NCBI RefSeq assembly: GCF_019670105.1
Contig: NZ_AP023032.1
Location: 2,536,972-2,600,971 of the forward strand
DNA from: Agarivorans albus
GTDB taxonomy: Bacteria > Pseudomonadota > Gammaproteobacteria > Enterobacterales > Celerinatantimonadaceae
DNA: 64,000 bases
Direction: 5' to 3'
Shown here: piece after piece, positions 23,640 to 34,699 of the stretch
How positions within the stretch are numbered: the first letter of the stretch is position 1
Layout of the letters: the number at the start of each line of letters is the position of its first letter
The notes under the pieces: generated by a model
What the model was told of the DNA's origin: nothing
What the model saw: the letters and a program-made list of their open reading frames with translations, nothing else
Databases searched by the model: none
Program-made: the position numbers and the translations under genes

Positions 23640-25751
23640 ATGCTAAAACAGCTCCTGTCTGGGCTACTTTTGCTCGTCTTAAAAATCGTCTTACTGCCTT
23701 TTAAGCTAATTATTAAGGCCACCACCCGCTTGTTAAATTGGGTTTGGGGTTTAGTAAAAGCAATTTGGCAGGTTTGGCTAGCATTAGGACCACGTTGGTT
23801 ACGCTATTCTTTTCTCGGCATTGCCTTGATCACAGCCGGATATCTAGGGCTAAAAGCTTTCCTCAAACCCAACTTAACCATAGAGACGGTGAACCAAGTT
23901 CACTACCTCAACAAAGGTTGGACAGACGAGCAACGCGAGCGTTTTTACTTTACCCCACAAGGTACCGAGCTATTAGGGCTAGAGTATGATTGGTTCATCA
24001 ACCTAGAGCTGCCGCTTTCCAAAGATTTATTAACCAGCCCCGACAATATGCGCGGCTGGGGCTTTATTGTAACCCCTGGCCAGCAGCCTACCACTTTAAA
24101 CCCTGGCAACCTTCCAGTAGGTTTAGGTCGGCACATTGACCCTAAATCCGGTAAAGAGCGCTTAGATCTTACCTGTGCCATGTGTCATACCGGTGAGCTT
24201 CACTACCAAGGTAACGCGCTGCGCATCGATGGTGGTCAGGCAGTGCAAAGCATTTCTAACGCCAAACGTGGCGAGTTTATTACTACCCTCGCCGCCTCTG
24301 TAGTCGCAACCCTCATTAATCCAAGTAAATGGAGCCGTTTTGCTGACCGCGTTGCAGGACAAGATCCTGCACAGCGTAAGCAACTACGCAAACAAATTTG
24401 GGGCTTCTTGGGTAATATTAAGCAATTTGTATCGGGCGCTGGTGCTCCTAAGCTCTACCCTGTTGAAGAAGGCCGCGGCCGAACAGACGCAGTAGGCCGA
24501 ATAGCTAATGTAGTATTTGGCTACGACCTCGACGAACCTGCTAACTACCGTGTCGCTAATGCACCGGTTAGCTATCCCTTCCTTTGGGATATCTGGCGTT
24601 TCGATTGGGTGCAATACACTGGTTTTACCAACCAAGCAATGGCACGGAATGTCGGTGAAAGCCTAGGCGTATTGGCGCCAATCAAACTAGTGAATGAAGA
24701 AGGTGAATTATTAACTAGCGAAGAGTTTGGTGAATCAGTCATTGATTTAGCTGGCATGCACTGCGTTGAAGGCACCTTACGCTCACTAGAGCCGCCGCGC
24801 TGGCCAGAAGCTATTCTAGGAAACATCGATACCCAGCTGGCCACCCAAGGTAAAGACTTATTCCTAGACCAATGTCAGGCTTGTCATGGACCGCATAAAG
24901 TCCAACCCTACCAATGGAAAGTAGCCAGCAAACCTGGCGAAAATCCAGACAAGCAAATAGATGTAAACTGGCAATGGGATATGGACGGAGACATTACTTT
25001 TGTTGGCCAACAAGCGGTCCGCGAAGATTGGCGCGAAGTAATTTGGGCAATGCCTTGGGTTAAAACCTCGGTGATTGGCACTGACCCTACCGCTGCAGAT
25101 AACTACATGGATCACCGCTACGATGGTAGCAAAATTATTCCAGGCTCGGCCCCGGTAAATGCTGGCGATGGCTTACAAATACTGCTTAATCGTTTAGTGC
25201 CAAAACTTTACCAAGACAATAACATCGATAAAGCCTTGATTGCTGACTACGATGGTTTAAATGTACCTTTTAGAATCGCCAATATGCGAGCCTATAAACC
25301 GCGCCCATTACATGGTGTGTGGGCTACCCCACCATTCTTACATAATGGTTCAGTGCCTACTTTGTACCACCTGTTATCGCCACTTCGTGAGCGACCAAAG
25401 CAATTTTATATTGGTAATCGTGAGTACAACCCAGACCATCTAGGTTTTATTACCGAACAACGCCCAGGTAGTTTTAAACACGATACCAGTATTAAGGGCA
25501 ACGGTAACCAAGGGCATCTATTCACTGATGTTGATATGCCGGGCCGAATCGGTCGTTTGCTTAGCATGCAGGAGCGTGCCGCTTTATTAGAATACTTGAA
25601 AGTAATGGGCAACCCAGAATTTAGCGACAAGCTTGGTGGAGACCCACTTGATTGGTCTAAATACACTCAAGCGCCACAGTTTGGCTCTGAACAGCAAGCT
25701 TGTTTAGACAGCTTTAACGCCGCGAAAAACAATCCAGCAAAGGTGCACTAA
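23640..25751 (+). CDS. Membrane-anchored di-heme cytochrome, RoxA/peroxidase-like
   Basis: 703 residues. The N-terminal hydrophobic region (about 1-75) has a likely membrane anchor at 55-72. There are two c-type heme sites: CAMCH (Cys179-His183) and CQACH (Cys412-His416). The spacing, the large size, and motifs such as PLHGVWATPPFLHNGSVPTLYHLL resemble the di-heme cytochrome c peroxidase/RoxA-like group. RoxA proper cleaves polyisoprene oxidatively, but activity cannot be assigned from sequence. The next gene, a catalase-fold protein, begins 1 nt after the stop, so the two surely act together in the periplasm. Confidence 0.85.
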   Translation: MLKQLLSGLLLLVLKIVLLPFKLIIKATTRLLNWVWGLVKAIWQVWLALGPRWLRYSFLGIALITAGYLGLKAFLKPNLTIETVNQVHYLNKGWTDEQRERFYFTPQGTELLGLEYDWFINLELPLSKDLLTSPDNMRGWGFIVTPGQQPTTLNPGNLPVGLGRHIDPKSGKERLDLTCAMCHTGELHYQGNALRIDGGQAVQSISNAKRGEFITTLAASVVATLINPSKWSRFADRVAGQDPAQRKQLRKQIWGFLGNIKQFVSGAGAPKLYPVEEGRGRTDAVGRIANVVFGYDLDEPANYRVANAPVSYPFLWDIWRFDWVQYTGFTNQAMARNVGESLGVLAPIKLVNEEGELLTSEEFGESVIDLAGMHCVEGTLRSLEPPRWPEAILGNIDTQLATQGKDLFLDQCQACHGPHKVQPYQWKVASKPGENPDKQIDVNWQWDMDGDITFVGQQAVREDWREVIWAMPWVKTSVIGTDPTAADNYMDHRYDGSKIIPGSAPVNAGDGLQILLNRLVPKLYQDNNIDKALIADYDGLNVPFRIANMRAYKPRPLHGVWATPPFLHNGSVPTLYHLLSPLRERPKQFYIGNREYNPDHLGFITEQRPGSFKHDTSIKGNGNQGHLFTDVDMPGRIGRLLSMQERAALLEYLKVMGNPEFSDKLGGDPLDWSKYTQAPQFGSEQQACLDSFNAAKNNPAKVH

Positions 25752-25752
25752 G

Positions 25753-26985
25753 ATGAAAAAACTATTTACTAAATCACCTTTAGCCCTTTGTTTGCTTGGT
25801 TTAAGCTTTAGTGCTGCTAATGCTAATGACTTATATAAAGAAATGGGCATCACCAAGCCCGAGCAAGAAGCCATTATGTCGGCGATTAACTCGGCGCGCG
25901 AAATATCTAAACGTGCAGAGCAATACAACGGTTTGCCTTACCGAAGGGACGCACATGCCAAAGCAACCGGTTGTGCTAGAGCTACTTTCTCGGTAAATCC
26001 AGACATTCCAGAGCGTTTTAAAGCTGGGCTGTTTGCGCAAGAAAATCAGCAATATAAAGCTTGGATCCGTTTCTCCAATGGCGACATGCTAGTACAAGCT
26101 GATAGTAAAGGCGACGCGCGAGGAATGGCGGTAAAAGTAATGAACGTACCAGGTAAAGCCATTGCCCCTGAGTTAGGCGAGAGTCATAACCAAGATTTCA
26201 TTATGACCAATACGCCGGCATTTTTTAACCGCAACATTTTTGATTACGCAGACGACATGACTTACTTGGCGAAGTTTCAACGCACCAAGTGGTTTATTAG
26301 CTTGTTTCCACCACGTTTGCACCCCAAACAGTTTTACCGGGCGATTCAAACCGTGTCATCGGTTATCAATACGCCACTTGAAGCACAGTATTTTTCTATG
26401 CTGCCCTACCGTTTAGGCAACAGCACCATTAAGTTTTCTACTAAACCTTGTGCCGGAATGACCTTCCCTAGCAAGGTAGATAAATCAGATCCTGATTATT
26501 TAAGCAATCAATTAGAAACTCAATTAGCAAACGGCGGAGCATGTTTTGAGTTTATGGTACAAGAAAAACTGCCGGGCTATTACATGCCGGTAGACGATGC
26601 TACCGCTATTTGGTCTGAGCAAGCCTCGCCATTCATTAGCATTGCAACTATTAACATTCCTCCGCAGCATTTATATAGCGAGCAGCAACAGCAATTTTGT
26701 GAAAATATATCGATGAATCCGTGGCGAGCAGTAGAAGGCTGGGAACCCTTAAGCAGCTTAAACAAAGCCCGACGTGTTGTTTATCAAGCGGTATCTAAAT
26801 ACCGTCATCAGCAAAACAAAGCAGCAACCCCAGAACCCAACTCATGGTGCTTAGCCAGCGAAGGAGAAGTTTGCGACCCAAACCAGGGTTTGGTTGTGAG
26901 CAAACCCACTTGGCCATTGCCCCGCTGTTTTGATGGTTACGCTAAACCCATTGATGGTGAAAGCTTAAACAGCAACTGTAAATAA
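25753..26985 (+). CDS. Periplasmic catalase-family heme protein
   Basis: 410 residues. A signal peptide ends about SAANA (residue 24). The catalase-fold signature is seen in RRDAHAKATGCARATF with the distal His68, FKAGLFAQENQQYKAWIRFSN, and KGDARGMAVKVMN. The usual proximal R-x-x-x-Y heme-tyrosine motif of true catalases is not obvious, so this belongs with the catalase-related (SrpA/allene-oxide-synthase-like) proteins rather than KatE. Six cysteines in the C-terminal half suggest disulfides. RBS AAGGTG lies within the end of the cytochrome gene. Possible role: handling organic or lipid peroxides with the di-heme partner. Confidence 0.8.
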   Translation: MKKLFTKSPLALCLLGLSFSAANANDLYKEMGITKPEQEAIMSAINSAREISKRAEQYNGLPYRRDAHAKATGCARATFSVNPDIPERFKAGLFAQENQQYKAWIRFSNGDMLVQADSKGDARGMAVKVMNVPGKAIAPELGESHNQDFIMTNTPAFFNRNIFDYADDMTYLAKFQRTKWFISLFPPRLHPKQFYRAIQTVSSVINTPLEAQYFSMLPYRLGNSTIKFSTKPCAGMTFPSKVDKSDPDYLSNQLETQLANGGACFEFMVQEKLPGYYMPVDDATAIWSEQASPFISIATINIPPQHLYSEQQQQFCENISMNPWRAVEGWEPLSSLNKARRVVYQAVSKYRHQQNKAATPEPNSWCLASEGEVCDPNQGLVVSKPTWPLPRCFDGYAKPIDGESLNSNCK

Positions 26986-28207: not shown

Positions 28208-31051
28208 CTATGCATCATTAAGTAACGGGGTTTCCAACTCTGGTTCTATTACCTCAAGTTCCTGCTTAATTTCAGCATCTAAACGCCAAATAGCTTGCCA
28301 AACTAAATCGGTAGTTGTAGCGGTGTCATCTACCCCATGCACCAGCTTTATTTGATAATCCACATTGTCAGAGCCTATGCTAGCTACATCAATATAAACC
28401 CGATTAACGGCGTCAATAGCCATAAGGGCGGCTTCTATCCGCGGGATCACCTGCAAGGGTTCTAACTGTTTATTTACTGAGGCAGAAAAACCACCTGTCA
28501 CAATCTGTCCACTGCTACTCACATTGTTTAAATTGGCGTTTGCCAAAGTATTGTTCGGGATAGAATAGAGGGTATTGTCAGCCGTTTTTACCTTAGTAGT
28601 ACGCCAGTTCATGTCTATCACTTCGCCTACAATTGGCCCACCATAGCCACCTAGACTAATCCAATCTCCAAGCTTAAACGGCTTCTCCAAGCTAATAGCA
28701 ATGCCCGAGAAAATATTCACAAGGTTTGATTGCAAAGCTAAGCCCAGGATCATTGCCACCAAGCCAGACGTTGCTAATAGGCTGGTTAGCTCTCGTTGGT
28801 ATACAAAAGAGAGAATCGCAAATATCGCTCCTATGTATGCTAAGCCACGAGTTAAGTGGCGCATAATTCGTGGAACTTGGCGGCCACTGCGCTTTTCTAT
28901 GGGGTCCCAAAGCAACACATCAATTAACAAAGCTAAGGTCGAGGCCAACAGTAGCCACCACAATACGTCGAAACAATTGCTAGCAAACAGCTGATTAGTA
29001 TTAGGATAAGCTTGCGCTAACCAATCTAAAAACAAGGGCTCAGCGGAAGCTATAAACAAGGCGTATAAAAGCTTGTTACCTAAGCCATAAGCTCTAGATA
29101 GCTGACCCAGTATCTTAAAGTCTAAAACCAATGCGTAAAGTAACCACGCCAATACACTGCTATAAAAGATTATCTGCTGCCATTGTGCGGGAATACGCCC
29201 CCTTAGGCTTAATACATTTTCTTGTACTGGCGTTAGAGAATTAAACCGAGAAAACTCCACAGCTTGTCTGTCTGAATGTAAATACTTGGGATCACCTAAA
29301 CTGCGTTTACGTAAGGTATCTTGAAAAGACAAAGTGCTGCCTTGGCGCCACTGGCTGGTGTCAAATTGAACCTTATGCTGGTTGGTTTGGTTTTTATGTA
29401 GGCTGGTTTGGCCGAGCCCAACAATATCTGATACATAAATAAGCTCACTTCTTGGCAGCGTAGTATGCCTAAAACTTACGCCCAGTTGGTATTCTCCAAA
29501 GGCTGCTCTACCGGGTTTTGCATCTGCTAGAAAAGTGCCTTCCACCTGATAAAGCTGGTAAGTACTTTGGCTTGTAAAATTAGACTCTATTGGTTCTTGT
29601 AAGCCCAAATCACCTACCGAGTTCAAAAACACGATGTCTTCGGCTTTTACCCCAGGTGTGCTTCTAAACCAAAGTTTAAATTTAGCTTTGAAGGTCATAT
29701 CTATGGTGGAAAACTCGCTAATGTTTTGCATTTCAATGCCGGTATACACCACATCAGTTCGGCGCACCGCAAGGTTTTCGTCATTAACATCTTGCAGCTG
29801 AATCGGCGCAGAAACAAAAGCCCCGCCACTAAACAAGCCCACTTGCATAGGGCGTAATACGTTGCCTTGCGAGTCAAAATACAAAGAGTGGGTTAAACCC
29901 TGAACAGCATTATTGGGTGAATCAAAACCAGTTAAGTGATTTTTTATCGCTGCTCTTTGGCTAGCTATATTAAGCTGGCTAAACTCATCGGCCCCGCCTG
30001 CTTCACCGCTTGCTGCATCTATTGCGGCCGATACGATAGTTGCTGCATCATAATATGCGGCCGAAACACCACTAGGCTCATAACCAAAACCTTTATGAAA
30101 GCTTTGATAAAAAAGTTGAGTTGATTCGCTGGCTACATCAAACAAGATAGGACTAACGGCGAACACCCCATTAGTATAATAACCAGATACTTCTCTCTCT
30201 TGGCTTCGATGTTTAAAACGCTCGGGGAAACTTTGCTTACCAATAGAAGAACTGCCAATAAACAGCCAATTTGGATGTTGCTGCTTTAAATGGCTAACTA
30301 GCGTTTCACCTTCTACATCATGCACCGCTAAGAACACTGCTCCGGTGTGGCCAAACTCACTAATTTTTTGGCTTATTAGCTCGGCTTGTTTAGCGATGTC
30401 TCTTTTTAAATCCACCCCTAAACTCAGCGTTTGAATCGCTAGCAGTTCAGCTCTATTAAGAAAAGAATCTGCTAACGACTCGCCAAATTTATCTTGGCTA
30501 TAGATTAATACCGCTTTGTCTTTAGCTAGGCTTGCAACGTAGTCGGCAACAAACTTACCTTGTAAATGGTTATCTGGAATAACCCTAAAAGCCCAGTCAT
30601 TATTCTGGGTGATCTCAGTTGCGGTGGCTGAGCCCCCAACCATGGGTAAACCAGCACGTTGGTAAATACTGGCGGCCTTAATCGAGGTAGCCGATGCTCG
30701 GTGCCCTAATACGGCAACTACATTGTTAGTTGCAGCTAACTGCTTCGCAATTAGCTGTGCTTTGCTTTTGTCATTAGCATCATCGTATTGCTGAACAACA
30801 ATGGCTACTTGGTTATCTTGCCGCTGGCTATTATGGAGATCAGCATAAAGTTGAGCACCGTGAACCATTGATAAACCTTTGTCGGCTTCATTGCCCGACA
30901 TTGGCCCAACCACCGCCAGTATTACACTATTTGTTCCACTGTCGCTTATCCACCGCTGCAAGTGCTCATAACTAGTAACTAAGGCGCTTGCGACAACACA
31001 TAAACAAGCAAGCGCAAGTATGCGTCTACGTAAATTCCATCTAATAGCCAA
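28208..31051 (-). CDS. Periplasmic-binding-receptor / MscS channel fusion
   Basis: 947 residues in several parts. A signal anchor occupies about 8-25. A type-1 periplasmic binding domain of the branched-chain amino-acid family covers about 42-420 (VILAVVGPMSGNEADKG; GHRASATSIKAA; FIGSSSIGKQSFPERF). A beta-rich segment at about 432-545 (VVYTGIEMQNISEFSTIDMTF, KLWFRS, GTFLAD, FGEYQLGVSFRH) has the look of the extracellular domain of pentameric ligand-gated channels. Membrane spans follow at about 627-645, 660-680, 693-714 and 733-752. The MscS pore helix and beta domain lie at 755-860 (TSGLVAMILGLALQSNLVNIFSG; PFKLGDWISL). The start is TTG at 31051 with AGGAAG 7-8 nt upstream. It is last in a four-gene operon. 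I infer a ligand-gated MscS-type channel; the middle-domain call is pattern-based. Confidence 0.8.
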   Translation of the reverse strand: MAIRWNLRRRILALACLCVVASALVTSYEHLQRWISDSGTNSVILAVVGPMSGNEADKGLSMVHGAQLYADLHNSQRQDNQVAIVVQQYDDANDKSKAQLIAKQLAATNNVVAVLGHRASATSIKAASIYQRAGLPMVGGSATATEITQNNDWAFRVIPDNHLQGKFVADYVASLAKDKAVLIYSQDKFGESLADSFLNRAELLAIQTLSLGVDLKRDIAKQAELISQKISEFGHTGAVFLAVHDVEGETLVSHLKQQHPNWLFIGSSSIGKQSFPERFKHRSQEREVSGYYTNGVFAVSPILFDVASESTQLFYQSFHKGFGYEPSGVSAAYYDAATIVSAAIDAASGEAGGADEFSQLNIASQRAAIKNHLTGFDSPNNAVQGLTHSLYFDSQGNVLRPMQVGLFSGGAFVSAPIQLQDVNDENLAVRRTDVVYTGIEMQNISEFSTIDMTFKAKFKLWFRSTPGVKAEDIVFLNSVGDLGLQEPIESNFTSQSTYQLYQVEGTFLADAKPGRAAFGEYQLGVSFRHTTLPRSELIYVSDIVGLGQTSLHKNQTNQHKVQFDTSQWRQGSTLSFQDTLRKRSLGDPKYLHSDRQAVEFSRFNSLTPVQENVLSLRGRIPAQWQQIIFYSSVLAWLLYALVLDFKILGQLSRAYGLGNKLLYALFIASAEPLFLDWLAQAYPNTNQLFASNCFDVLWWLLLASTLALLIDVLLWDPIEKRSGRQVPRIMRHLTRGLAYIGAIFAILSFVYQRELTSLLATSGLVAMILGLALQSNLVNIFSGIAISLEKPFKLGDWISLGGYGGPIVGEVIDMNWRTTKVKTADNTLYSIPNNTLANANLNNVSSSGQIVTGGFSASVNKQLEPLQVIPRIEAALMAIDAVNRVYIDVASIGSDNVDYQIKLVHGVDDTATTTDLVWQAIWRLDAEIKQELEVIEPELETPLLNDA

Positions 31052-31071: not shown

Positions 31072-32109
31072 TTATTCAAAGTAGTTATTGGTGGCGCGGG
31101 CAAAAGCTTCTAGTACTTTTGGCACTTTGATATCGCGAGCTTCAAGTGCTTGATGACGCAGAGCTACCACGTATTGTTTCGATATAGCCACTGGCATCTG
31201 TGACAAACTAGCGGGATCTTCCACTAAGCGAATAGCCCGCTCGAAAGCTATCTCTCCCTGCTCAAAGGGTGAAGCTCCAATTGAGAGCATGACCCCGTCT
31301 TCAGAGTTAAATGCATTGATACCAACAATCGGTAGCGTTGAATTTGCTTCGGTCCATTGCGCCACTTCTTCAGCAGAGGCAAAGCTTTCGCTACCGTCAC
31401 TAAACAGTTTACGGTAGCCGCCAACTAGCAAAAATTGGTACTTGCCGTTAAGTGATAGAACAGCTTGCTTCCACTGTTCGAAGGTTTTAACCCCAAGGTG
31501 CCCTTGGTATTCAAGTGGCGCCCACTCTTGCCTTGCTAGGTAACCCGCATCAAGCTTGGCCGAAGTTGAACTATCGGAGAGGTAAACAACACTCCCTTTC
31601 AAGCTGCCAAGTCTAGGCTGGCTTTCTACCAATAACCTTAATACTTCTTTAATTGCCGACACCGATTTACGTTCGAGTATGCCTGTCACATTGTCAGCAT
31701 CCTGATAACCATAGGCTTCAAGCTCAGCATTTACCCCGGCAAACACAATCTGAATCGCTTCGTTGCCAATATAGTCGGTAGCAACTAAGCGCTGAGCATC
31801 GTCATCAATAACCAGTAATACATTGGGTTGGTAGTTATCGACTACCCGTTTAGCAACCGTTGCAGCGCGTTTCTTAGCGGCTTCGCTAGATTGATTTTTG
31901 GTATTCATGTAGTGATAGCGAATATCAACATTCATGTGGGCGCGCTTGGCTCTGTCTATGCCTTGGTTAACTGTGCGAGTCCAGGCATAGTCGGTTTCGT
32001 AGCTATGCAGAATGAGGATTCTTGGCCTTGAAGCCCCCTCCACGACTATCACTCCGATAGTAGCAACGAGAAAGCTCAGCATAATGACGCTTAACAGTAA
32101 CTTTTTCAT
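31072..32109 (-). CDS. Periplasmic substrate-binding protein, ABC-sugar-binding-like
   Basis: 345 residues. The signal peptide covers about 1-26 (MKKLLLSVIMLSFLVATIGVIVV). The mature part is a two-lobe type-1 binding fold: RILILHSYETDYAWTRTVNQGI, PNVLLVIDDDAQRLVATDYIGN, VVYLSDSSTSAKLD, TLPIVGINAFNSEDGVMLSIGAS. It resembles PF04392-type binding proteins. The ATG at 32109 overlaps the preceding stop as TAATG, so it is translationally coupled. No ABC permease or ATPase is nearby, which suggests it feeds ligand to the SLC13-like transporter or the receptor channel rather than an ABC importer. Confidence 0.8.
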   Translation of the reverse strand: MKKLLLSVIMLSFLVATIGVIVVEGASRPRILILHSYETDYAWTRTVNQGIDRAKRAHMNVDIRYHYMNTKNQSSEAAKKRAATVAKRVVDNYQPNVLLVIDDDAQRLVATDYIGNEAIQIVFAGVNAELEAYGYQDADNVTGILERKSVSAIKEVLRLLVESQPRLGSLKGSVVYLSDSSTSAKLDAGYLARQEWAPLEYQGHLGVKTFEQWKQAVLSLNGKYQFLLVGGYRKLFSDGSESFASAEEVAQWTEANSTLPIVGINAFNSEDGVMLSIGASPFEQGEIAFERAIRLVEDPASLSQMPVAISKQYVVALRHQALEARDIKVPKVLEAFARATNNYFE

Positions 32110-33956
32110 TATATAAGCCCCATGCTTTGCCAATAAGGAATGCTGAGATAAACCGCTACAAGTTTGAACAGGTATATCAGTACATTCATTTTCATCAACT
32201 TGGCTTCATCATTACTCACAATGCCGGTGGTTAAACTTAAAAACTGCATGTAATAAGAAGCCTGGAACGGCCAAAAGAAGCTTTCTGAAAGGAACAATAT
32301 TAGGAAACCAATCACCCAAGGATTCACCCCCACTTCTATGGAAGCAGGAATAAGTAAGGTAGCTAGAATAATCACCGTTGCATTGATTGGCAGTATTAAA
32401 CGAATAAGACTCACGATAACAGCCAACAACACCACAAACAGTGCCAAGCTTTCTTGCATGTAAGCAGCCAACCAATAGATTTTCCCAGTAAGCCAAGTAT
32501 CTAGCTCTACTTGATGAATAATGTCGACCACACCAATTAGCGAGCCTAAGAACACAAGAAAGCTCCAATCAATTTTAGTTCTAAACTGGTTGGGATCTAA
32601 AAAACCAAACATCATCAAATAGAACAGAATGGCTAAGGCAACCCAAGCAACTTCGATACGGTGAATATTGGCAAATAACAGAGCCGATATAAGCACGATT
32701 AGACCAAGAATTGACGACCACTCGGCAGGGTTTAGCGAACCAAGGGTTTTAAGCTGCTGCAGGCTTGTAGTTTTTGGCAGCTTTAGACTTTGTTTATTGC
32801 GATAAACCCAGCACAAAGAAACAGCGTACAGCGCTAACAGCACCATGCCACAAACCAATGCCGCAAGTAGCCAATCTAGCCATTGGAAATACTGCTGAAC
32901 TTGCTGTGGCAACATGCCTAATACGATAAAGTTTACCGACTTACTACTAACAAAAATTGGCGACAGTAAGCTTGCGCCAAATAGCAGGCTGGCCTTTAAC
33001 CTCGGTCCCTCTTGCTCACGCGCTTCTTTACTCGCCCCACTCAACAAATCTTTTAAGAACGGCGCAACAATGGTTACCCTACCATTAACGGTAGGCACAA
33101 CCGGTGTAAGCAATGCGCCAACACTAAAAAAGCTGATGTTATACCAAATTTTGGAAGCAGGACCGATTAACAGTAGATGCAACAACATACGATAACTTAA
33201 ACCCGATGAGCGGATTACCGCGCTCAAGCCAAGTATGCTCAAAGCCATAAAAAAGCTGTTGCTCGAGAAGCCGGAAAACGCCGATTCACTGGTGGTAATT
33301 CCCAGCAATACAGCACTTAATACAGCAAATAACCCAGGCACATAATCTGGTAGTAAACGAAAGATCCACATTACCGAACATATGCCAAGGATTGACGCAA
33401 AGTAGATTGCATCTTGATGCAATGGTTGCTGGCTAAGTATTAAGCCCCAATAAATCATTAAAGGGGTTATTATCGCAAACAACCAACCAATGATCTGGCG
33501 ATAGCCCACTTCAATGTCATGTTTAGGGCTTAAGTCGACTTCAATATGCGTTTGCCCCGCAAGGCGAGAGTGGAAGCTGTCGAGCAATGATTGTTTAAAA
33601 CTACTGTAGGCTTCTAGAGTAAGTATCGCCGCCAAGGGTAAAACCACCAGCTCGGCACTCTCTACTACCTCAATATCGTAGATGTAACTGCGCATACCTA
33701 GTGCCGACTCTTCGCCGAAGAATCCGCTAATAGGCCCTTTAACCTGATCTTTATTGGTGGTTTGTAGCTCACCTTCTAGTAAGTAATATAGGTTGTTCGC
33801 GTCTTCTCCCGAGCGGCAAACAACCTCACCAGGCGCTAATTTCACAACTGTAATATTTGCTAACAGTCGAGCGAGGTCTTCTTTCTGGCAGCCAGAAAAA
33901 GCGGGGTTACTTTTTAAAAACTGACTTAAAACTTGTAGCTTTTCCGGCATAATCAT
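32109..33956 (-). CDS. Cyclic-nucleotide-domain / SLC13-type anion transporter fusion
   Basis: 615 residues. An N-terminal cNMP-binding domain covers about 1-135 (PGEVVCRSGEDANNLYYLLEGEL; GFFGEESALG). It is followed by about 11 membrane spans of the SLC13/DASS (citrate-transporter-like) superfamily; VPTVNGRVTIVAPFL and LPINATVIILATLLIP occupy the two substrate/sodium loop positions. The ATG at 33956 overlaps the lipoprotein stop as ATGA. In the cNMP domain the phosphate-cassette arginine is not clear (GEESALGMRSYIY), so ligand binding is uncertain. The fusion suggests transport gated by an intracellular signal. Second in the operon. Confidence 0.82.
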   Translation of the reverse strand: MIMPEKLQVLSQFLKSNPAFSGCQKEDLARLLANITVVKLAPGEVVCRSGEDANNLYYLLEGELQTTNKDQVKGPISGFFGEESALGMRSYIYDIEVVESAELVVLPLAAILTLEAYSSFKQSLLDSFHSRLAGQTHIEVDLSPKHDIEVGYRQIIGWLFAIITPLMIYWGLILSQQPLHQDAIYFASILGICSVMWIFRLLPDYVPGLFAVLSAVLLGITTSESAFSGFSSNSFFMALSILGLSAVIRSSGLSYRMLLHLLLIGPASKIWYNISFFSVGALLTPVVPTVNGRVTIVAPFLKDLLSGASKEAREQEGPRLKASLLFGASLLSPIFVSSKSVNFIVLGMLPQQVQQYFQWLDWLLAALVCGMVLLALYAVSLCWVYRNKQSLKLPKTTSLQQLKTLGSLNPAEWSSILGLIVLISALLFANIHRIEVAWVALAILFYLMMFGFLDPNQFRTKIDWSFLVFLGSLIGVVDIIHQVELDTWLTGKIYWLAAYMQESLALFVVLLAVIVSLIRLILPINATVIILATLLIPASIEVGVNPWVIGFLILFLSESFFWPFQASYYMQFLSLTTGIVSNDEAKLMKMNVLIYLFKLVAVYLSIPYWQSMGLI

Positions 33957-34699
33957 CGGCAATACTGCTCCGTTGGGATAACAGCATGTACCTGATACTC
34001 TGCCCCCGGCGCAATAATGTATTCACTAGCACCTTGTTTAGATTGAGGGTTTCCCCAGTCGTAGGTGTAACCTAAGCCTGTCCATGGAACACCTGCAGAC
34101 TCTCGAAAACTCTTGAAGTATAAAGCTTGATAGAAGCCCGGATAATCGTTAATCCCCTTCACCTCATTGGCTATTTGGCTGGCATCTAGCTTACAACTCT
34201 GGTCGTCAATTTCAGGGTCGACACAAGGCCTAAATAGGTCTTCTGGCGCAACATACAACTCTACAAAAGCATTGTAATCCCAGCTTGGGTCTAAACCTAG
34301 GTATTGCTTTAAACGCAGCTCAAGATCGCTTTGCGAAACGGTTTTATTATCAGACAGGTACTGACTGCAGAACTGCTGAAGTTGCGGAGCAAGGCTCACC
34401 CATATTGGATAATTTGGATTAGTAGAACTGTGGGTATTTGGCAAAACAAATTTGTCGATGGCACCCTGGCTTTTCCAAGTGAGTACCAGCAGTTTGTCGC
34501 CTTGTTCATTCCATTGCAGCAGTTCGTTGTTAGCATTTACGGCAAACAAATTAGTGCTAACATCTTCAGGTTGAGGAAATGCAGCCTGCTTAACTGCTAA
34601 ATCGTAGGCGGAGTTAGGTTGCTCGAGTGATTGGCTACAACCTGTCATAAGGCATACAGATAAGGTGCAAGCAAGTGCAGAAAAAGTGAATTGATTCAA
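33953..34699 (-). CDS. Lipoprotein of unknown function, first gene of channel operon
   Basis: 248 residues. Lipoprotein signal with LMTGC (Cys21). No known family recognised. Visible features: VLTWKSQGAIDKFVLPN, PIWVSLAPQLQQFC, an FRPCVDPEIDDQSC Cys pair likely to form a disulfide, and a C-terminal PWTGLGYTYDWGNP stretch rich in aromatics. The start is TTG at 34699 preceded by AAGGACATATT. It overlaps the transporter gene by ATGA, so it is an integral operon member. Probably a periplasmic accessory to the binding protein and channel. Confidence 0.7.
   Translation of the reverse strand: MNQFTFSALACTLSVCLMTGCSQSLEQPNSAYDLAVKQAAFPQPEDVSTNLFAVNANNELLQWNEQGDKLLVLTWKSQGAIDKFVLPNTHSSTNPNYPIWVSLAPQLQQFCSQYLSDNKTVSQSDLELRLKQYLGLDPSWDYNAFVELYVAPEDLFRPCVDPEIDDQSCKLDASQIANEVKGINDYPGFYQALYFKSFRESAGVPWTGLGYTYDWGNPQSKQGASEYIIAPGAEYQVHAVIPTEQYCR

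Follow-up and report, generated by a model that had tools for sequence, protein, structure and literature searches.

Tasneem et al. (PMC549065) described type-I periplasmic binding protein (PBP-I) domains fused to pentameric ligand-gated ion channels (pLGICs), namely the ART-LGICs of Magnetospirillum magnetotacticum and Bradyrhizobium japonicum. DeCLIC, as presented in PMC12664993, is a pLGIC with a periplasmic N-terminal domain, the lobes of which were likened to calcium-binding regulatory domains. Here we analyzed a 64,000-nucleotide stretch of the Agarivorans albus genome (the window, to which coordinates refer unless another sequence is named) and describe a gene at 28208..31051 on the minus strand, the product of which combines an N-terminal anchor, a PBP-I domain, a pLGIC-type extracellular domain (ECD), five transmembrane (TM) helices, an MscS pore and a cytosolic domain. 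Like this hybrid, PBP-carrying pLGICs have an N-terminal PBP-I domain followed by an ECD, and both domains align with those of the hybrids; those found here keep the Pro-loop, the arginine preceding the first membrane helix (pre-M1) and the four-helix pore, whereas the hybrid has an MscS pore and has lost the coupling residues. DeCLIC differs in the same respect, its pore being a pLGIC pore.

On the pore side, YnaI and the MscS superfamily share the pore helix and beta domain with the hybrid and are the best kin of its pore in the PDB. YnaI has five TM helices, the same number as the hybrid, but to our knowledge no periplasmic receptor. The bCNG channels consist of an MscS pore with a C-terminal cyclic-nucleotide domain; a C-terminal cyclic nucleoside monophosphate (cNMP) domain is also common to 33 of the 78 hybrid sequences collected here, although Pfam matched none in the window protein, and we know of no bCNG channel with a PBP domain or a pLGIC ECD. 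In ionotropic and metabotropic glutamate receptors a PBP-type clamshell governs a membrane signal, and the hybrid's PBP-I domain is kin to that of the metabotropic receptors (mGluR). These receptors, as far as we know, act through another pore or a seven-helix effector and lack a pLGIC ECD. In the open-access literature, with subscription journals and domain-architecture databases outside its scope, no title or abstract start described an MscS channel with a pLGIC ECD, and in PMC4795631 the words MscS, mechanosensitive, N-terminal domain, periplasmic, fused and fusion are all absent.

Architecture and conservation of the Agarivorans protein

The gene lies in a 4.79-Mb genome assembled as one contig, and its open reading frame (ORF) of 947 residues runs from a TTG start at 31051 to a stop at 28208. 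A hydrophobic helix at residues 7–31 (30959..31033; all parts of the gene are on the minus strand), visible in hydropathy and in the model, is predicted to be a signal anchor or signal peptide. The PBP-I domain spans residues ∼42–415 (29807..30928) and, besides having PDB kin, matched Peripla_BP_6 (PF13458) over residues 45–379 with an E value of 4.5e-22, above the cut-off. Foldseek with the full-length model gave E 9.3e-22 to a leucine-bound PBP, consistent with a PBP-I fold. The ECD follows at residues ∼430–613 (29213..29764). Four TM helices (residues ∼622–751; 28799..29188), placed by model and hydropathy and aligned with YnaI from about residue 673, precede the MscS pore helix TM3 (residues ∼755–789; 28685..28789), and the MscS beta domain with a cytosolic alpha/beta part completes the protein (residues ∼790–935; 28247..28684), with a match to MS_channel_2nd (PF00924) above the cut-off at residues 779–845 (E 5.4e-18). 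The full-length AlphaFold model was only fair, with a mean predicted local distance difference test score of 77, a predicted template modeling score of 0.63 and several TM blocks at 45–60.

The initial annotation had proposed a single protein of this length with a type-1 binding domain and an MscS pore with beta domain, and the ORF, the two Pfam matches and the YnaI alignment bore this out. It had also placed a beta-rich segment at residues 432–545; the segment is real, but the model strands and the alignment extend it to about 430–613.

Of seven Agarivorans genomes, five carry the gene intact. At the level of the order, the middle and first-TM region was matched in 6 of 295 genomes, five of them Agarivorans and the sixth containing a weak fragment with internal stops (L013) that was not used. 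The ratio of nonsynonymous to synonymous substitution (dN/dS) against the two nearest congeners was 0.044–0.045 for the PBP domain, 0.018–0.024 for the ECD and 0.016–0.023 for the TM/MscS part; synonymous sites were near or past saturation against the two farther congeners. All parts of the hybrid are under purifying selection. Because the gene is intact in these congeners, has 52 related loci elsewhere and shows a dN/dS of 0.016–0.045 in every domain, it is not a product of chance or of assembly.

Identity, relatives and origin of the middle domain

To identify the middle domain we relied on profile-profile comparison, fold search and phylogeny. With hhalign, the ECD copies of MscS-type proteins alone matched the ECDs of PBP-pLGICs with a probability of 99.9% (E 8e-38) and those of canonical bacterial pLGICs with 93.6% (E 2e-7), whereas the highest probability among ten control comparisons was 0.9%. 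The ECD was also modeled by itself with AlphaFold from an alignment containing no pLGIC, and a fold search with this model retrieved pLGICs and acetylcholine-binding proteins. The corresponding search that used the full-length model is uninformative about the ECD, because its best 50 rows consisted of PBP-I proteins, PBP-I-based sensors and class C receptors. A profile of the ECD and M1 of PBP-pLGICs found GLIC constructs at E values of about 2e-6 to 4e-6; against the PDB it gave 135 sequences at E up to 10, the best 60 of which were all pLGICs, nearly all GLIC. The proposal in the initial annotation that the middle segment corresponds to the extracellular domain of pLGICs and has PBP-carrying pLGICs among its relatives held up in the profile-profile comparisons and in the rooted tree described below; an unrelated fold, named there as the outcome that would speak against it, was not what the ECD model returned. 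We regard the hybrid architecture and the homology of its ECD to that of pLGICs as virtually certain. The protein shares the homologous beta-sandwich ECD with pLGICs but departs from them in its pore, since the helices after the ECD end in an MscS pore, and belongs to the MscS superfamily by its beta domain and pore helix.

This hybrid is a family found in many other bacteria. A profile built from four congeners matched 10 of 369 genomes of the class, the own genome being counted. Eight of the matched proteins with a PBP domain (L016–L021, L025 and L026) and one without (L023) continue into MscS, and 7 of these 9 carry a C-terminal cNMP domain. Three further matches (L022, L024 and L027; E 6e-21, 1e-14 and 1e-16) end in a short four-helix domain and have a Y-P-[FVL]-D-x-Q loop; they were taken as PBP-carrying pLGICs because the profile of their ECD and M1 finds GLIC. 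One scan of GTDB species genomes (84,980 species according to the tool description) with a narrow ECD alignment, chosen after a broader one proved too variable for this purpose, yielded 52 distinct loci, in which domain profiles detected MscS in 51, PBP in 50, the full PBP-ECD-MscS series in 50 and cNMP in 25. The exceptions were L051, without a PBP domain, and L068, which is truncated where its contig ends. The profile for the pLGIC pore (TM4) matched 0 of these 52 loci, compared with nine PBP-pLGICs outside its training set that scored 38–55 bits; the scan ratios are biased toward the MscS type and give no ratio of hybrids to PBP-pLGICs, because the scan patterns derive from MscS-type members. 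L023 and L051, in which the ECD is joined to MscS and cNMP domains with no PBP domain detected, are natural PBP-less versions.

When 299 genomes of the phylum were searched with the PBP-pLGIC profile, 41 gave a match (own genome counted), and the 29 loci taken from this search divided into 17 with an MscS pore, 9 with a pLGIC pore, 2 cut before the pore and 1 (L112, dropped) with no domain match in the ORF picked. Three loci judged to be truncated, L068, L108 and L116, stand outside the motif counts and trees. The resulting 78 hybrid rows include genes seen via two collections and correspond to 73 distinct ECD sequences. Among the record titles of the 52 scan loci are Thiomargarita, Thioploca, Parabeggiatoa, Halobeggiatoa, Desulfamplus and Desulfonema as well as Magnetospirillum, other Rhodospirillales, Acetobacteraceae, Magnetococcales and Agarivorans. 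Several hybrid or PBP-ECD copies per genome were seen in Beggiatoa-type sulfur bacteria and others (L043 and L049 on QNEL01000070.1; genomes G470, G326 and G759). L080, whose record bears the name Mesoflavibacter (Bacteroidota), clusters closely with Rhodospirillales and may reflect a mislabeled or mixed metagenome-assembled genome or a transfer; occurrence in Bacteroidota is not claimed because the protein sits among Rhodospirillales.

Two trees bear on the origin of the hybrids. In the tree of PBP plus ECD (81 proteins, excluding duplicates and rows under 380 residues), 69 hybrids fell on one side of a branch with a Shimodaira-Hasegawa-like approximate likelihood ratio test (SH-aLRT) support of 96; L086, from Agarivorans sp. 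Toyoura001, was the row nearest to the window protein in both trees. In the ECD tree of 44 rows (26 of the 78 hybrids, picked by the analyst, 12 PBP-pLGICs and 6 canonical pLGICs as outgroup), the hybrids formed one clade (100/99) inside the PBP-pLGICs. According to PMC549065, an acidic-basic pair at the Pro-loop and pre-M1 sites is universal and probably involved in gating. Proline and aspartate of the Pro-loop occur together in 12 of 12 PBP-pLGIC rows versus 0 of 73 distinct hybrids (proline alone in 13, aspartate alone in 4), and the pre-M1 arginine in 12 of 12 versus 2 of 73. In the window protein, alignment with PBP-pLGICs places AAFGEY at the Pro-loop (residues 516–521; 29489..29506), where the latter have Y-P-F-D-x-Q, and E611 at the arginine position (29219..29221). 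Eight ECD residues (W461, F462, R463, N477, F507, D542, W568 and G586) are nevertheless identical in all 78 hybrid rows.

Judged from these trees and alignments, the hybrids form a single clade and the residues that couple the ECD to a pLGIC pore have been lost from them. A replacement of the pore predicts a receptor half that stays under constraint while its contacts with the old pore are lost, which matches the hybrid pattern. One pore swap is the simplest history, and we consider it highly probable that a single swap took place in a PBP-pLGIC. In a PBP-carrying pLGIC ancestor, the four-helix pore would have been replaced once by an MscS-type five-helix pore, and the periplasmic half, a PBP-I clamshell with a Cys-loop-receptor-type ECD, would have been inherited.

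Predicted working and alternative explanations

Hydrophobic stretches were found at about residues 625–651, 661–679, 691–719, 732–751 and 754–786, and the loops contain 3 (640–660), 0 (676–692) and 5 (712–732) lysines plus arginines. Because of these stretches and basic residues, the PBP domain and ECD are predicted to be periplasmic and the MscS cage cytoplasmic, which agrees with the layout of YnaI and its five TM helices. Alignment with YnaI, which with MscS was the best PDB kin of the pore, put M767 on L154 and L771 on M158, which we take to be the YnaI gate, and both positions stay hydrophobic in the window protein, as they do in most of the nine other hybrids aligned. PDB entries of the ECD kin contain five chains in nearly every match listed, those of the pore kin seven. 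For the PBP-I domain the PDB kin were Leu/Ile/Val-binding proteins and mGluR; in the leucine-binding protein, the residues aligned with S120 and T143 are S79 and T102, presumably its ligand contacts.

These features point to a natural chimera of two ion-channel superfamilies, in which a periplasmic half derived from a PBP-pLGIC sits on an MscS pore and is chemically gated or tuned, and we hold this reading to be probable. A small molecule, probably amino-acid-like, would close the PBP domain; the ECD would pass this movement to the helix at residues 622–642; and the MscS pore would open or close in response, giving a chemically gated or tuned solute or ion channel of the inner membrane. The predicted control of the pore by a ligand seems rather likely. 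We give about even weight to the further proposal that the hybrids represent a widespread, undescribed class of ligand-gated channels with a Cys-loop-receptor ECD ring on a seven-fold MscS pore, which would entail either a heptameric ECD ring or a five-to-seven mismatch, and a new interface that takes over coupling from the Pro-loop.

Several points weigh against the chimera reading. The middle segment alone matched no Pfam family, Neur_chan_LBD included, and the profile of MscS-type ECDs alone had no match in the PDB at E values up to 10; the link to pLGICs is profile-profile, transitive through intermediate sequences, and structural. The GLIC matches of the PBP-pLGIC profile consist of two stretches, each weak alone and one of them over M1. 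The Pfam model of the pLGIC membrane region (PF02932) scored 12.6–27.1 bits on L022, L024 and L027, below its cut-off of 28.1, and likewise stayed below it in four of five further PBP-pLGICs; seven of the eight scanned were matched, all below the cut-off, and L095 gave no match. In the ECD tree, the branches that nest the hybrids in the PBP-pLGICs are weak (87/45 to 92/75), and its hybrid rows were hand-picked. The amino-acid contacts vary among the relatives, with L replacing S120 in L020 and L021, and N, V or D replacing T143 in L016, L017, L020 and L021. Ligand binding, gating and assembly are all predictions.

The hybrid could instead be a tension-gated osmotic valve with a chemical tuner, in which tension opens the pore as in MscS and YnaI and the PBP-ECD unit, with the cNMP domain where present, shifts the threshold. 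YnaI and MscS are gated by membrane tension, and both the kinship of the pore to them and the hydrophobic residues at the gate positions fit such a valve. A valve, however, would not need a large periplasmic receptor that purifying selection strongly maintains, and the same genome has other MscS-like genes; we consider this alternative possible but somewhat doubtful. If the ECD were a passive spacer, the PBP domain would deliver solute to an MscS pore serving as a regulated exporter or importer, with no allosteric signal passing through the ECD. The missing Pro-loop and pre-M1 arginine would suit a spacer, as would the transporter and second binding protein encoded nearby, but the eight invariant residues and an ECD dN/dS no laxer than that of the PBP domain or pore make this unlikely.

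It is very improbable that the middle domain is an unrelated beta-sandwich merely resembling pLGIC ECDs: the lack of a direct sequence match to PDB or Pfam speaks for it, and the controlled profile-profile comparisons, the fold search, the tree and the alignment of PBP and ECD with proteins keeping the four-helix pore speak against it. We found nothing in favor of a recombination or assembly artefact fusing unrelated genes, the chance of which is negligible given that five of seven congeners share the architecture, as do 50 of 52 loci drawn from many assemblies. Among the other MscS-like genes of this genome, one (L014, genome positions 365000–375000) lies near a branched-chain amino-acid-type PBP gene and apparent ABC transporter genes, named by eye; this separate-gene echo of the fused parts is probably due to chance.

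Neighboring genes and significance

The channel gene is the last of a run of four genes on the minus strand. A stand-alone substrate-binding protein (SBP; 31072..32133), encoded 20 bases upstream, had no Pfam match, whereas its Desulfamplus counterpart matched PF04392 (ABC_sub_bind). Its gene is overlapped by that of a DASS/SLC13-type transporter with an N-terminal cNMP-binding domain (32109..33962), which is in turn overlapped by the first gene of the run, encoding a lipoprotein-like protein without a Pfam match (33953..34699). Transporter and SBP also adjoin the channel in L086. They do so too in four loci of Desulfamplus, which belongs to another phylum, but there the gene order differs (L058, L061, L064 and L066; the SBP of L064 is cut). 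The N-terminal cNMP-binding domain is present in the transporter of the window and in those of L086 and L058. Among seven congeners, transporter and channel were both present in five and both unmatched in two. By tblastn the transporter-SBP pair was found in none of the other 47 of the 52 loci (25 of all 52 span less than 12 kb), and it occurred in 4 of 11 SBP loci with no channel part found within the 3.7–4.0 kb examined. Because the pair is unmatched in 47 of 52 channel loci and occurs without a nearby channel, it is not an obligate channel partner. Transporter and SBP are possibly a binding-protein-dependent secondary transporter, and a DASS-type transporter beside a stand-alone ABC_sub_bind-type SBP was seen in the window (31072–33962, minus strand), in the four Desulfamplus loci and in L127–L130.

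In Magnetospirillum moscoviense (L069, 169–4620, 1483 residues) and Pacificispira spongiicola (L079, 77–4546, 1489 residues), the hybrid gene is immediately preceded, on its own strand, by a very long ORF. Elsewhere in the window, a RoxA-like cytochrome c gene is directly followed by a catalase-like gene (23640–26985, plus strand).

The way in which the ECD of a pLGIC drives the pore is a central issue in receptor biophysics, and the domain is viewed as a pentamer that sits on its own four-helix pore. The hybrid seems to be evolution's own swap experiment, in which the same sensor was placed on an unrelated pore of another symmetry and the classical coupling residues were removed, and it makes testable which ECD movements belong to the domain itself and which hinge on the pore. 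Chemically gated MscS channels can also be modeled on this natural example. Taken together, the findings suggest a new kind of chemically controlled channel, which adds to the ways in which bacteria attach receptors to channels, with PBP, ECD and cNMP domains arranged around one pore.
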